Assembly: GCA_015709675.1 (NCBI GenBank)
Contig: CP054182.1
Location: forward strand, 124,001 to 188,000
From: Ignavibacteriales bacterium
GTDB taxonomy: Bacteria > Bacteroidota > Ignavibacteria > Ignavibacteriales > Ignavibacteriaceae
Direction of reading: 5' to 3'
Length of the DNA stretch: 64,000 nucleotides
The notes below the pieces were generated by a model. The model ran no database searches. It had not been told where the DNA came from and saw only the letters and a list, made by a program, of their open reading frames with translations. Each line of letters starts with the position of its first letter. Within the stretch, counting starts at the first letter, position 1. The position numbers were made by a program, and so were the translations under genes. This document shows, one piece after another, positions 47,637 to 54,493 of the stretch.

Positions 47637-48296
47637 TCATTTCGTTTGATGCGAAATGTTCGCCCTGAACCATTCTGCCTCTGAGGCGGCCGGAAGGTCG
47701 GAGACTATCCTCTCCTGAAGTTTTTCCTGGGCATTCCGTATTGAGCTGGTGACCATTTGGTGGGTAATTGCCTCCCCTTTCGCCAGACCAAGTGTGGCAA
47801 CAAGCTGGCTTAACCGTTCCCCGCCAAATATCTTCAGCAGTTCATCCTCAAAACTCTGGTAAAATGTAATAACTGCTTTCCGTTTCATAGCGCGGGCAAA
47901 TGTCTGAACAAGACTATCAGTTTCTAATTTGGGATGATGCCCGGCAACAATTACGGCAACTTCTCCGCTTTTTTCTTCACCAAAACCGCCGCTCATTCCT
48001 TTGAGTACTTCAGAGGGGAGAAGAAGCACGCGCACCATCTGATTGGCCGCGGCATTCACCGTTTCGTAACGCTGATGCACCTGATCAAAAAAGCGGAAGG
48101 GAACCGTCTGCTCTTCAAGTTCATCCTTCAGGACATTGAACTGATCATGAAAGAAGGTAATCACCATGACCGCATCGTAAGAATGAGCCGCTGTTTTAAT
48201 ATCCTTCAGCATCCCCTCCAGCTTTTCCTCGCCGGTTATATATACCTTGTCTTCACTGATAACCGTTGCGTCCTTTTTGCCGAAACCAAACATCAT
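47637..48296 (-). CDS. Stand-alone SecA NBD2/scaffold-like protein without motor motifs
   Basis: A 219-residue protein. Residues about 148-205 match the end of SecA NBD2 and the start of the helical scaffold: FYQSFEDELLKIFGGERLS, LGLAKGEAITHQMVTSSIRNAQEKL, compared with the SecA pattern F.LSLED.LMRIFG...LG...GE.IEH..VT..I.NAQ.K. The preceding part fits the NBD2 fold, but the GRGTD and GRSGRQGDPG motifs of ATP-driven SecA are missing (FARAMKRKAVIT instead). So it should not hydrolyse ATP. It lies 9 nt from the thioesterase gene. Role unknown. Confidence 0.75.
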   Translation of the reverse strand: MMFGFGKKDATVISEDKVYITGEEKLEGMLKDIKTAAHSYDAVMVITFFHDQFNVLKDELEEQTVPFRFFDQVHQRYETVNAAANQMVRVLLLPSEVLKGMSGGFGEEKSGEVAVIVAGHHPKLETDSLVQTFARAMKRKAVITFYQSFEDELLKIFGGERLSQLVATLGLAKGEAITHQMVTSSIRNAQEKLQERIVSDLPAASEAEWFRANISHQTK

Positions 48297-49963: not shown

Positions 49964-51253
49964 TTAGACCGCGTGCTCATGTTCTCCCGCTGGAATCCAC
50001 ACTTCAGCAAGAGCCTCCGCCAGGCGGTCAATATCCCCGCGGGTATGGGTTGCCATCAGACTGACGCGGAAGCGCTGTCCGGAAAGAGGTACTGCCGGAT
50101 ATTCAATGGAATTAAGGAAAATGCCCATACGGTGCAGGTCATACGCTGCTTTACGGATATTCATGTTCTGAGGCACGGGTATTGGAATAATTGCTGAATT
50201 TCCGCTTACGGTAAATCCACTTCTCTCAAGGCAGGCATGTGCATAAACAATATTCTGCCTTAGCTGTTCAAGCCGTTCCGGTTCTCGCTGCATCACATCA
50301 AGCGCTGCATCAACCGCCGCGATAATCAGAGGAGAGACGGTAGCAGAGAACATATACGAGCGTGCGTAAAATCTCAGATAGTTTATGATATCCGCACTTG
50401 CCGCAACAAATCCTCCGGTAACTGCGAAGGTTTTACTGAACGTTCCCATGATCACATCAACTTTTCCTTCAACCCCGAACGCTTCTTCAGAACCCCTGCC
50501 GGTTTTTCCCGCTACTCCGGTTCCATGCGCGTCATCAACCAGCAGGATCGCTCCGTATTTTTCGCAGATGGCAGCCGTTTCATCAAGAGGGGCAGCATCG
50601 CCATCCATCGAATATATACCCTCAACTCCCACAAAGATATCTCCATGATTCGTCAGGCGGGCTATCCGGAGTTTTTCTTCAAGCGCGGGCATCGAATTGT
50701 GAGGAAAGCGGAATGATTTTGCGCCCGAAAGTTTTATCCCGTCGGTAAAGGATGCATGACTGTATGCATCATATATCAGAATCGCATCTTTATCAGCAAG
50801 CCCCGAAACCAGCCCCAGGTTTGCTGCATAGCCGCTTGCAAATATCATTGCTGATTCTGTTTTTTTAAGTTCCGCGAGACGCTCTTCAAGCCGGCGGTGC
50901 AGTGATGTATATCCGTTCAGCAGCGGCGGGCCTCCGATTCCTGTGCCAAACTGCTGCGCTGCTTTTTTTACCTGTTCTTTAATGTAAGGATGATTTGCAA
51001 GTCCGAGATAGTTATTTGAACCGAACATCAGCATCGGACGCATCCGGCCGGTCTCCTCATCATACACCAGCACTTCCCGGTCAGCAGCCGATCCGATCAT
51101 CCGCATATACATAAGCTGATGATGTTCATCAAGCTGATCCGTGATCTGCCTGAAATAAGCCATTTTCTCTTTGAAGCTGAATCTCCTTCCGCTCTCCATA
51201 ATCGAGTGAAGGTCAAAATTCTCTCCCCCTCCGCATGCAGTGTCTTCTTTCAT
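49964..51253 (-). CDS. Alpha-oxoamine synthase (serine palmitoyltransferase/AONS-like)
   Basis: A 429-residue PLP enzyme. Motifs: MLMFGSNNYLGLANHP, GTGIGGPPLLNGYTSLH, VDDAHGTGVAGKTGRGSEE, and the Schiff-base lysine in MGTFSKTFAVTGGFVA. The family condenses an amino acid with an acyl-CoA: serine (sphingolipids), glycine (Kbl), alanine (biotin) or others (CqsA). No biotin genes are nearby; a lipid kinase of the LCB5/DAGK type lies upstream, so a sphingoid-base route is one possibility. It has its own promoter, matching that of the UbiA operon. Confidence 0.85.
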   Translation of the reverse strand: MKEDTACGGGENFDLHSIMESGRRFSFKEKMAYFRQITDQLDEHHQLMYMRMIGSAADREVLVYDEETGRMRPMLMFGSNNYLGLANHPYIKEQVKKAAQQFGTGIGGPPLLNGYTSLHRRLEERLAELKKTESAMIFASGYAANLGLVSGLADKDAILIYDAYSHASFTDGIKLSGAKSFRFPHNSMPALEEKLRIARLTNHGDIFVGVEGIYSMDGDAAPLDETAAICEKYGAILLVDDAHGTGVAGKTGRGSEEAFGVEGKVDVIMGTFSKTFAVTGGFVAASADIINYLRFYARSYMFSATVSPLIIAAVDAALDVMQREPERLEQLRQNIVYAHACLERSGFTVSGNSAIIPIPVPQNMNIRKAAYDLHRMGIFLNSIEYPAVPLSGQRFRVSLMATHTRGDIDRLAEALAEVWIPAGEHEHAV

Positions 51254-51288: not shown

Positions 51289-51341
51289 GAAACTTACCCA
51301 CCCCAGCGGAACACACTGTCACGGTGATGTAAAAAAGTTGT
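51289..51341 (-). promoter_or_regulatory. Promoter with shared 25-bp motif ahead of the SPT-like gene
   Basis: On the minus strand a 25-bp motif (51317-51341), ACAACT followed by TTTTTACATCACCGTGACA, ends exactly 20 nt before TAAGTTTC (51289-51296), a -7 element with one mismatch. It holds the palindrome TCACGGTGA. A 22/25 identical copy lies at the same distance before the UbiA gene (54377-54401). No -33 TTG is present, so an activator site is likely. Confidence 0.7.
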
Positions 51342-51389
51342 CATGATCTTAAATCGTTCCGGCCCGCGCCAGGTATAAATAGTTTTCAC

Positions 51390-52427
51390 TCAGGAATTAT
51401 TCCAGGCTGCATTCAGCTCATTAAGATAACCACCCGGGTTTTCAGCATAATGCTCATACAGATTTCTTATATATCCCGTATCAGGTTTCCGCTTTTTCCC
51501 TTTAATTAGAAATTCTATTGCCGGTTCTTCAATCACTTCCCCGATTTTTATAATGCTAAAACCGCCTGCTTTCTCATATTGGGCTAATTCTTCCGCTCTG
51601 CCGGATGGAACCGTAAAGACCAGTTCAAAATCACCGTGAATGGCTGAAAGAAAAACTTCAGCACCTGTGCCTGTTGCAGATGCCAAAGCAAGCGCTTCCT
51701 GAGCAGTAAAAACTTCAGTATCCGCAAAAAGACGGAATCCGCAGCCATTCACCCGCATGAGCTGGTCAAGCGCGGCAACAAATCCGTCGCTGCTGTCAAT
51801 GCATGCCGAAGCAAATTGTTTTATCAGGTATCCTTCCTGCAGTTTTGCTTTGGGCAGATAGGTAATTGTTCTTTTGTCAGCGGGGATGAATAATTTTTCA
51901 AACGCGTAAGCATTTCCAAGACCCGGTTTTCCGGTTGTGCAGAGTATATCCCCCGGACTGCACCCTTTCCTTGTCATTGGTTTCCCGTCACTGATGATTC
52001 CCAAAGCTGTTCCGCCAAGCATTATGCTGCGGCCTCTGTTGGTGTCTCCTCCGAGTATATACGTCCCGCATGCCTGCACTGCGTTATGTATTCCCATCTG
52101 AATGTTCATAATGTCCTGCTCTTTTATTTCGACTGGTAAAGTCTCCTGCATCACCAGACCGAGAGGAACCGCACCCACAGCCGCAAGATCACTCAGATTG
52201 ATCATCACCGCCATCCATCCCGCCTGCCGGAAATCATCATACAGCCCGCTGCTGATTTCCTCAGATATACTGTCTGTGGTTACTGCAAGAATCGTACTGG
52301 TGCCATCAAGTCTGATCAGTTCAGCATCGGACTCCTGCAGCCCGTTTACCTGAAAAGGGGAACGGGTGAAATTTTTTACCAGGTTTTCAATAAATAGATT
52401 TTCACTAACACGGGTGTTTACCTGCAT
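51390..52427 (-). CDS. AIR synthase-fold kinase, ThiL-like
   Basis: A 345-residue protein of the PurM/ThiL family. Motifs: ILAVTTDSISEEISSGLYDD, GWMAVMINLSDLAAVGAVPLGLVMQETLP, ILGGDTNRG, ACIDSSDGFVAALDQL and SAIHGDFELVFTVPSG, matching the metal- and ATP-binding residues of thiamine-monophosphate kinase. No other thi genes are in the window, and its place between lipid genes suggests a paralogue with another phosphoryl-acceptor. It overlaps the lipid kinase gene by 10 nt. Confidence 0.82.
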   Translation of the reverse strand: MQVNTRVSENLFIENLVKNFTRSPFQVNGLQESDAELIRLDGTSTILAVTTDSISEEISSGLYDDFRQAGWMAVMINLSDLAAVGAVPLGLVMQETLPVEIKEQDIMNIQMGIHNAVQACGTYILGGDTNRGRSIMLGGTALGIISDGKPMTRKGCSPGDILCTTGKPGLGNAYAFEKLFIPADKRTITYLPKAKLQEGYLIKQFASACIDSSDGFVAALDQLMRVNGCGFRLFADTEVFTAQEALALASATGTGAEVFLSAIHGDFELVFTVPSGRAEELAQYEKAGGFSIIKIGEVIEEPAIEFLIKGKKRKPDTGYIRNLYEHYAENPGGYLNELNAAWNNS

Positions 52428-53317
52428 ACTTTCACCGCTTCCTTATAAACAGAAAAAATTGCTTTTTTTGTTTTCACCGTTTCGCCGTCACACTCAACCG
52501 TAAACTCCTGTTCTGCTGATACCGCAAGTTTCTCCGCCGAAAATGATGAGGTTTTTGCAATCCTCCGGAATTTCCCTCTCACAAGAGCATTCATCAGTGA
52601 CGGGATTTCTCTTTTGTTCATGTCCCCGGCAAGGTACACCCGCAGTAGCCCGTCGTTATATACAGCTTCATCATCATACCGGAAACTGCCGGAGAAATGA
52701 GGATTCTTCACTATGCCTAAATTAGTTACGTTACAGTGCAGTTTGCTCTCTTTCCGGTGCAGGCACACGGGAATATTTCTGTATCCGGCAATCGTTTCAG
52801 CCGCAGCCAGCAGTATGGCGGAACCTGTATGAACTTTCTTCAGTATTGTAAGCAGCGCATCAGGATGATTAAACCGGTAGTTTGCCTCTGCTGTTATTCC
52901 TATGCTTGCGTTTATCATAAAATACCGTCGGCCGTTATCATAATCCAGAGAACAGATATCACGGAGTACGGCGCGTTCGAAGTCCAGTGCGACCGGAATG
53001 CCGCATATCATCATTGATATCGGCTTATGGAAATCATTGCTTGAGCCGAGACCTATGGCGCCGATCGTATAACCGGAAAGCATGCCGGGTGATATATACA
53101 ACAGCAGAGTGTTCAGCAGAAGGTTCACAGTTCCGTCTCCCCCTGCTGCAATAAAGCGGGTCTCACCTCTCTGTATGCGCAGTTTCATCTGCATTCTCCA
53201 TTCATGATTTTTAATTGAGATCACAGACGCCTCACGTATATCAGGTGCTCCCTTTATTGCATCCCACTTAGCAGCACCCCTCCCCTGCTGAGCATCCGGA
53301 TTAAGTAAAATAACCAT
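52418..53317 (-). CDS. Diacylglycerol/sphingoid-base kinase-like (DAGK catalytic domain)
   Basis: A 299-residue protein with the DAGK signature FIAAGGDGTVNLLLNTLL (GGDGT, about residue 60) and the downstream Gly-rich GAIGLGSSNDFHKP motif. DAGK-family members phosphorylate diacylglycerol, ceramide or sphingoid bases (LCB5). The substrate cannot be read from sequence. It lies 8 nt behind the UbiA gene and overlaps the ThiL-like gene by 10 nt, so coordinated translation is likely. Confidence 0.85.
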   Translation of the reverse strand: MVILLNPDAQQGRGAAKWDAIKGAPDIREASVISIKNHEWRMQMKLRIQRGETRFIAAGGDGTVNLLLNTLLLYISPGMLSGYTIGAIGLGSSNDFHKPISMMICGIPVALDFERAVLRDICSLDYDNGRRYFMINASIGITAEANYRFNHPDALLTILKKVHTGSAILLAAAETIAGYRNIPVCLHRKESKLHCNVTNLGIVKNPHFSGSFRYDDEAVYNDGLLRVYLAGDMNKREIPSLMNALVRGKFRRIAKTSSFSAEKLAVSAEQEFTVECDGETVKTKKAIFSVYKEAVKVCR

Positions 53318-53325
53318 GGCCTCGT

Positions 53326-54312
53326 CTATATCTGGCTTTCAGAAGGCCGGAGTTTCAGCACGGCAATAAATAGAAAATAATATCCCGCAAGAAACAGCCA
53401 CCATTCCGGTCTTTGTAAGAGAGAAACAGCCGAGAGACAAAGTATATATCCATGCACTATCAGGGCAATCGGTTTGTGGGCACTATCATCCGTCCGCACC
53501 CTGTGGAGCAATACCTGTGCCGTTACTGTCACTGCAAGTGATAACATAAGGAATACCATTGCCGGGAGAACCATGCTGAGTTCTTTCCCTGCTCGCAGTT
53601 CTTTAATCAGCAATGATGCAGCCGGCAGAATCATCCCGAGTGCAAAGAGGTCACTGAAATACGCTGAAATTTTTCTTCCAAATTTGACCGGCAGCGTGAA
53701 GTATCCGGTCTGGCGGTCTGCTTCAATATCCTTAAAATAACCGCCCAGCACAAAATTAGCATACCCTGAAAAAACTAAAATCACCGCCGGTAAAAGCATC
53801 AGATGCGCACCCGTTGATTCAGCAGGACTGGTTATATATCCCATCAGAAAAAGAACTGCAACTATCCATGCATTATAAAACGGACCAGCCCAGTATCTTT
53901 TTTTAAACCAGGTATACGTCAGAAGTCCGAGAGCAGAAAGCCCGCCGAGGGCAATATTCCAAACTGAATAATGAGCGAAAATTGCAACGCAGATTAGTAA
54001 ACCAGCCATACTGACAAATAGGACATCTCTGACAGAAATCAGTCCCTGAACCAGAGGCCGGTAAGGGGAGGAGATTACATCGGTATCCGTCTGAAAGCAG
54101 TCCGTAAGCGCCTGCCCAAAACCGTAGGAAAGGAACGAAGCAAGTCCGACGAGTAAAAATCGGGTAAAATCACTCCCTGCTGAAAAAGCCAGTCCGGCAA
54201 GTCCGGTAATACCTGAGACAAAGAGCAGATACGGCCTCATGGTGACCGCAAATGCTTTCATAAATCCGATGGAAAACAGGGGATAAGGTTTGATGATAAG
54301 TTCGTTGTGCAT
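53326..54312 (-). CDS. UbiA-family prenyltransferase
   Basis: A 328-residue protein with about eight to nine membrane helices. The first Asp-rich motif appears as TDCFQTDTDVISSPYRP (in place of the usual NDxxDxxxD) and the second as FKDIEADRQTGYFTLP, so Mg-prenyl-pyrophosphate binding is plausible. UbiA-type enzymes prenylate aromatics, heme or glycerol lipids. It is the first gene of the operon with the lipid kinase and ThiL-like genes; no quinone or heme O neighbours. Confidence 0.8.
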   Translation of the reverse strand: MHNELIIKPYPLFSIGFMKAFAVTMRPYLLFVSGITGLAGLAFSAGSDFTRFLLVGLASFLSYGFGQALTDCFQTDTDVISSPYRPLVQGLISVRDVLFVSMAGLLICVAIFAHYSVWNIALGGLSALGLLTYTWFKKRYWAGPFYNAWIVAVLFLMGYITSPAESTGAHLMLLPAVILVFSGYANFVLGGYFKDIEADRQTGYFTLPVKFGRKISAYFSDLFALGMILPAASLLIKELRAGKELSMVLPAMVFLMLSLAVTVTAQVLLHRVRTDDSAHKPIALIVHGYILCLSAVSLLQRPEWWLFLAGYYFLFIAVLKLRPSESQI

Positions 54313-54348
54313 GGCCAGGCCTCATATAAATTGAACTGTCTGTTGGTT

Positions 54349-54401
54349 CAAAATTACCCGGACTATAATCCTGCTATGTCACAGTAATGTAAAAATGTTG
54401 T
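54349..54401 (-). promoter_or_regulatory. Promoter with shared 25-bp motif ahead of the UbiA operon
   Basis: TAATTTTG (54349-54356, perfect -7 match) is preceded at exactly 20 nt by a 25-bp motif (54377-54401), ACAACA followed by TTTTTACATTACTGTGACA. It equals the motif ahead of the SPT-like gene at 22 of 25 positions, and both end about 64 nt before the ATG. Confidence 0.75.
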
Positions 54402-54493
54402 AAAACTAATGTCGTGCCCGGGGAAGACTCCTTCCAAGAAAATACGCAGGAGCCAGAGGTTCACCAATTGGTGGTTTAGGAGTTGATAACAAT

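Follow-up and report, generated by a model that had tools for sequence, protein, structure and literature searches.

Genes and promoter motifs at the locus

The DNA analysed here (the window) is a stretch of 64,000 nucleotides of an Ignavibacteriales bacterium, G000:C1:124001-188000, taken from a single 4.2-Mb contig whose close contigs are named Ignavibacteriaceae. On its minus strand lie a gene of the SPT/AONS family (SPT, serine palmitoyltransferase) and an operon for a UbiA-family membrane transferase, a YegS/DAGK-type lipid kinase and a ThiL-like kinase (Table 1), which together are referred to below as the lipid cassette or lipid cluster. A first-pass annotation of the sequence had reported a shared 25-bp motif ahead of both transcription units, and the two copies, ACAACTTTTTTACATCACCGTGACA (window 51341-51317) and ACAACATTTTTACATTACTGTGACA (window 54401-54377), were indeed found on the minus strand with 22 of 25 positions identical. 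Also the distances were as described, since both copies end exactly 20 nt ahead of a -7-like element and 63 or 64 nt ahead of the ATG. The reported lack of a TTG at -33 is correct, and it is the last TGACA of the motif that overlaps this position.

The 25-mer pattern is expected ~1.6e-7 times per genome, and because of this low number a chance origin of the motifs is excluded. Only the two window copies match the exact pattern in the 4.2-Mb genome, and the sole further place at ≤3 mismatches, which has 3, precedes an outer-membrane-like gene. The motif is present as annotated, but it is both longer and simpler than the annotation had it, and consists of three TKACA words 11 bp apart.

Table 1. 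Positions of the lipid cassette genes and of their putative control elements in the window
Feature	Position in window	Strand	Remarks
Activator site 1 (putative), before SPT-like gene	51317..51343	-	TGACA(51343-51339)-N6-TTACA(51332-51328)-N6-TGACA(51321-51317)
Activator site 2 (putative), before UbiA operon	54377..54403	-	TTACA(54403-54399)-N6-TTACA(54392-54388)-N6-TGACA(54381-54377)
-7-like promoter element TAAGTTTC (SPT-like gene)	51289..51296	-	exactly 20 nt past last TGACA
-7-like promoter element TAATTTTG (UbiA operon)	54349..54356	-	exactly 20 nt past last TGACA
F3, SPT/AONS-family acyltransferase dependent on pyridoxal phosphate (PLP)	49964..51253	-	below all NCBIfam equivalog cut-offs
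F1, UbiA-family membrane transferase	53326..54312	-	both Asp-rich motifs (DCFQTDTD, DIEAD)
F0, YegS/DAGK-type lipid kinase	52418..53317	-	GGDGT motif; DAGK_cat and YegS_C domains
F2, ThiL-like AIRS-family kinase	51390..52427	-	GGDT motif kept; family signature HG(D/E)(F/Y)EL

Tandem TKACA words mark a predicted envelope regulon

In the upstream sequences of orthologous genes in other Ignavibacteria, what is conserved is a TKACA word that recurs two to four times with a period of 11 bp. In the cluster upstream regions of Ignavibacteria, TKACA words were spaced by 11 bp (n = 26) or 22 bp (n = 15), with a single case each of 10 bp and 25 bp, whereas the reversed word, used as a control in the same count, gave 1 pair. 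Genome-wide numbers of sites were obtained by pattern searches. The triple TKACA repeat has 5 exact matches in the window's genome against 0.11 expected. Two of these lie at the window promoters, two at promoters of outer-membrane-like paralogs, and one directly downstream of a gene for an OmpR-type response regulator. When two words were combined with the promoter element (TKACA-N6-TKACA-N20-TAnnTTTR), 11 exact matches were obtained against 0.04 expected, and none with the reversed control. These 11 matches, the SPT promoter with its TAAGTTTC element and one relaxed site constitute a set of 13 promoters. Throughout this set TNACA-N6-TGACA does not vary, and TA..TT stands at N20 in 13/13. Unrelated genes behind motifs at random distances, which the first-pass annotation had named as evidence that would speak against it, were not what we found, as the distance in this set is always N20. 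The TCAC-n-GTGA palindrome, to which the annotation had drawn attention, was rejected as the recognition unit and is incidental, because it is present in only 1 of the 13 promoters.

Eleven of the 13 promoters precede predicted envelope genes. Aside from the two lipid targets (the UbiA operon and the SPT-like gene), the set comprises four lipoprotein-like genes (849-858 kb), three outer-membrane-like paralogs (1139-1142 kb), outer-membrane-like proteins of 180 and 181 aa, a 966-aa secreted protein, and a small membrane protein operon. Proteins were labelled as outer-membrane, lipoprotein or secreted from our reading of signal peptides and composition, and those with such labels that were searched in Pfam and NCBIfam had no match. 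Co-regulation of the two transcription units in the window, as proposed by the annotation, is supported and very likely, but the motif is not specific to lipid genes and belongs to a wider envelope regulon of ~13 promoters.

Two related features were noticed. A run of lipoprotein-like paralogs occupies G000:C1:849-860 kb (L133 and L168); regulon sites precede at least four of them, and the one member that was searched in Pfam had no match. At G000:C1:84161-84363 (L136), a 22-bp tandem array (TTACAAATTCGTG.CATTCGTG) mimics the repeat pattern at one mismatch, and the 9 one-mismatch triple-repeat matches located there were discarded as part of this array and not promoters.

The sites are conserved upstream of the lipid cluster in Ignavibacteria

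In 18 Ignavibacteria-type loci, 37 two-word sites were found in 18.5 kb upstream of cluster genes versus 15 in 401 kb elsewhere, a 53-fold difference, while the reversed control gave 1 and 4, respectively. Nearly all of these two-word sites have a -7 element at N20, and most Ignavibacteria with the orthologous lipid cluster show this arrangement ahead of it. The other cluster-bearing phyla yielded 2 two-word matches in 38 kb. Control by these sites is essentially confined to Ignavibacteria, while the gene cassette is widespread. Further sites in relatives were found before a 270-aa family (G032), an SPT ortholog (G023), and other secreted proteins.

A PDZ-7TM kinase and an OmpR/PhoB-family regulator track the sites

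The first-pass annotation had suggested looking for a conserved regulator gene beside such clusters, and in relatives an OmpR/PhoB-family response regulator (RR) and a histidine kinase (HK) were found in this position. The HK/RR pair adjoins the lipid cluster in L034, L035, L036, L040, L043, L045 and L047, and the RR alone in L041 and L046. In the window's genome, the corresponding two-component system (TCS) is located at G000:C1:3289839-3293108 and encodes an RR of 231 aa (C1:3289839-3290534), 47% identical to the RR of L036, and an HK of 848 aa. A perfect site lies between the RR gene and the next gene, which codes for an outer-membrane-like protein, and the same site precedes homologs of this 181-aa protein in four other genomes (G036, G008, G007 and G032) from three genera. 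At one such TCS-adjacent site, in G046 (L184), the gene behind the site resembles, by its sequence, a secreted enzyme of the endonuclease/exonuclease/phosphatase family.

The RR combines a receiver domain (PF00072) with a Trans_reg_C winged helix (PF00486). The HK carries HisKA and HATPase domains and has a weak match to HisKA_7TM (7TM, seven transmembrane). A structural model of the N-terminal part of an HK homolog, with a mean predicted local distance difference test score (pLDDT) of 61, places a beta-rich domain between the first and second transmembrane segments, the best, though weak, fold matches of which are the PDZ domains of DegS/HtrA proteases (E ~8e-3, probability 1.00). This PDZ-like domain suggests, as far as the model goes, that the HK may sense the envelope. 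In several genomes (loci L035, L036, L200, L207, L208, L212 and L213) the PDZ-7TM kinase is followed by two RRs in a row instead of one.

The sites and the TCS are associated genome-wide. Out of 164 genomes from the order, strict sites were found in 16 and the HK in 40, and the HK is present in 15 of the 16 site-bearing genomes (Fisher p = 8e-10). The remaining one is apparently the L046 genome, with an identical site sequence, in which the cluster is adjoined by the RR. At the genus level, 23 of 68 genera have the HK, and these include all 12 genera with sites (p = 2e-7). A UbiA ortholog was found in five of 59 relatives, and 5/5 are HK-positive. We therefore consider it likely that the regulon marked by the sites, including the lipid cassette, is activated by an OmpR/PhoB-family TCS. 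The most likely reader of the sites is the RR encoded at G000:C1:3289839-3293108.

Several points weigh against this assignment. In the window's genome the TCS does not adjoin the lipid cluster, and C1:1486063 codes for another related RR that is 47% identical to the query RR and has no HK seen beside it. The strict pattern, which demands N20 and exact words, finds nothing in 25 HK-positive genomes, and in the site-rich G007 and G032 the HK match covers the kinase half only. Shared ancestry makes the co-occurrence p-values optimistic, for which the genus-level test corrects only partly, and the RR tree, poorly resolved and with a few non-RR rows included, was not used as proof of orthology.

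Other possible readers of the sites

The sites might be PHO boxes of the phosphate starvation regulator PhoB, in which case the lipid cluster would serve to remodel membranes when phosphate is limiting. Read in reverse complement, TGACA-N6-TGACA corresponds to the TGTCA repeat of the E. coli type (PHO box word CTGTCAT), 5'-nucleotidase-like genes are among the regulon neighbours, and the best NCBIfam model for the candidate RR is that of PhoB (TIGR02154). However, the RR scores 233.3 bits with this model, below the cut-off of 296.2, a separate PhoB/PhoR-like pair is present (RR ...RTIDVHVRKIREKLG, L097), the sensor of the candidate HK is of the PDZ-7TM and not the PhoR type, and no pst or phoU gene was recognised by eye behind the 13 own sites or the sites in relatives, so that we regard PhoB as an unlikely reader.

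Slightly less probable still is a different reader from the OmpR family, such as the orphan RR at C1:1486063, with the PDZ-7TM TCS being no more than a frequent neighbour. The similarity of this orphan to the cluster-adjacent RRs about equals that of the candidate (47% each), but no HK of the conserved type adjoins it, and what is conserved beside both the cluster and the sites is an HK-RR pair.

The 11-bp period is also reminiscent of B12-dependent MerR photoreceptors of the CarH/LitR type, in which case the lipid genes would be light-regulated. CarH operators consist of three to four tandem 11-bp repeats, nnnnTnnACAn, one of which overlaps the -35 region (PMC9304148), and the window sites likewise read ACA each 11 bp. 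The invariant letters differ, however, being T at -2 and K at -1 before ACA instead of T at -3, and the sites track an OmpR-type TCS. The genome codes for four B12-binding_2 proteins, one MetH-sized (1233-aa frame) and three smaller ones that lack a MerR domain, and in essence no MerR-B12 fusion is found in a complete site-bearing genome, which leaves a CarH/LitR-type regulator very improbable. Stand-alone B12-binding proteins that resemble the light-sensing half of CarH, again devoid of a MerR domain, were seen at L109:1087-1746 and L110:1474-2124, and one of the two adjoins an MlaE-type permease gene.

Finally, the two motifs could stem from one promoter that was duplicated locally, without any wider regulon. 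This would explain why the window copies (22/25) are more alike than the other sites, but it is already refuted by the genome-wide matches, since the words and their spacing are common to 11 other promoters of the genome and to orthologous promoters in many genera, and the flanks and -7 regions of the two copies differ.

Proposed mechanism

OmpR/PhoB regulators occupy tandem direct repeats as head-to-tail multimers. The PHO box bound by members of this family consists of two 11-nt units (PMC4415409), and PhoP of Mycobacterium tuberculosis recognises a 7-bp motif with a 4-bp spacer and also binds three and four repeats (PMC4832192). The motif described here, TKACA every 11 bp in two to four copies, would then be a tandem binding site for the OmpR/PhoB-family RR. 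Promoters of Bacteroidota carry TAnnTTTG at -7 and TTTG near -33 (PMC7366714). The last repeat overlaps -33 at a fixed 20 nt from TAnnTTTG, so the RR would replace the -33 contact, and this position fits class-II activation. The proposal of the first-pass annotation that the motif stands in for the -33 element as an activator site is supported by this arrangement. In the proposed scheme, a change in the envelope would be sensed by the HK, and the RR would switch on the envelope regulon, the output of which would be outer-membrane proteins, lipoproteins, secreted proteins, and the cassette of UbiA, lipid kinase, ThiL-like and SPT-like enzymes. What the analysis shows directly are the sites with their spacing and conservation, and their association with the TCS across genomes; direct binding, activation rather than repression, and the signal are what we infer here.

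Across several phyla, one conserved cassette unites the genes for UbiA, the lipid kinase and the ThiL-like and SPT-like enzymes. All four occur together in Ignavibacteria, Eisenbacteria, WOR-3, Zixibacteria, Draconibacterium, Lunatimonas and Legionella gresilensis, and three or fewer of them in Dyadobacter and Aminicenantes (carrier names are as on the sequence records). In some lineages the cassette is accompanied by an SDR, a B12-type radical SAM protein, a DUF3419 protein, a GNAT protein and an acyl-CoA synthetase, the SDR and the acyl-CoA synthetase being identified by sequence inspection. Another gene family, F10, was dismissed as probable antisense noise from open reading frame calling in high-GC contigs. 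F1 scores 84 bits with PF01040 (gathering cut-off 34.2), and the catalytic motifs of the cassette enzymes are mostly kept: DCFQTD in 42/46 and DI.AD in 40/46 UbiA homologs, and GGDGT in 35/45 homologs of F0. F2 reaches 158.4 bits with ThiL, below the cut-off of 184.15, and no better ThiL candidate was found elsewhere in the genome.

The lipid kinase and the ThiL-like kinase might convert a lipid alcohol to its monophosphate and then to its diphosphate, from which UbiA would transfer the chain, with an acyl-aminoketone (sphingoid-like) partner supplied by the SPT-like enzyme. This two-kinase relay feeding UbiA is weakly suggested by analogy with phytol salvage. A full-text keyword search of open-access papers gave no relevant description of a UbiA set with a lipid kinase, SPT or ThiL. 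The UbiA-like Ubi-297 operon (PMC9235831) could not be matched to the cassette, and the text of that paper mentions no kinase or PLP enzyme.

A tentative and rather doubtful extension would be an outer-membrane stress response that alters lipid chemistry. An HK whose DegS-like periplasmic PDZ domain monitors the outer membrane would then act through a PhoB-like RR to induce outer-membrane proteins, lipoproteins and an undescribed membrane lipid, the last being built on an SPT-type aminoketone by the lipid kinase/ThiL-like kinase/UbiA relay.

The analysis provides a regulator candidate, a site model and ~13 target promoters for Ignavibacteria, in which gene regulation has seen little experimental work. 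It would place a cassette found in Ignavibacteria, Eisenbacteria, WOR-3, Zixibacteria, Aminicenantes, Bacteroidota and Legionella under envelope control, most likely linking a lipid-making gene set of several phyla to sensing at the cell surface. It also suggests a route by which a Bacteroidota-type promoter may be activated without a -33 element, namely through a tandem-bound regulator at a fixed N20.

Two further genes were noted. G000:C1:3103076-3104110 is a second SPT/AONS-family gene, 37% identical to that of the window and possibly the housekeeping copy. Window 47637-48296 (minus strand), between thioesterase and ferredoxin-like genes, codes for a 219-aa protein that matches only the P-loop end of SecA.

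Comparison with known systems

The system resembles the PHO box regulon of PhoB-PhoR in E. coli, and of PhoP elsewhere, in its OmpR/PhoB-family winged-helix regulator, its tandem 11-nt direct repeats (PMC4415409, PMC4832192) and the class-II-like position at -35. It differs in that the word read toward the gene is TKACA, the promoter is of the Bacteroidota type, TAnnTTTG with N20, the sensor is a PDZ-7TM protein, and the targets are envelope proteins and a lipid cassette, no pst or phoU being seen among them, while a PhoB-like pair exists separately. With CarH/LitR operators it shares tandem 11-bp repeats that contain ACA and overlap the -35 region (PMC9304148), but not the invariant letters; no MerR-B12 protein was found in the genome, and the targets are not light genes. 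As in the DegS/AlgW-sigma factor and CpxAR envelope stress pathways, a periplasmic PDZ-like domain would start the signalling and envelope proteins are targets; here, however, this domain, with its weak fold match (E ~8e-3), is part of a histidine kinase and not of a protease.

For the lipid cassette, one close parallel is phytol salvage, where two successive kinases, VTE5 and VTE6, make the isoprenoid diphosphate used by a UbiA-family prenyltransferase. Two successive kinases feeding a UbiA-family enzyme are proposed here as well, although the kinase families are unrelated and an SPT/AONS-like enzyme is added. This enzyme, F3, is like bacterial SPT in having the PLP-lysine and catalytic His motifs, and its closest solved chains are bacterial SPTs; unlike SPT, it scores 364 bits with the SPT model NF047600 (cut-off 640) and is usually packed with UbiA, the lipid kinase and the ThiL-like enzyme.

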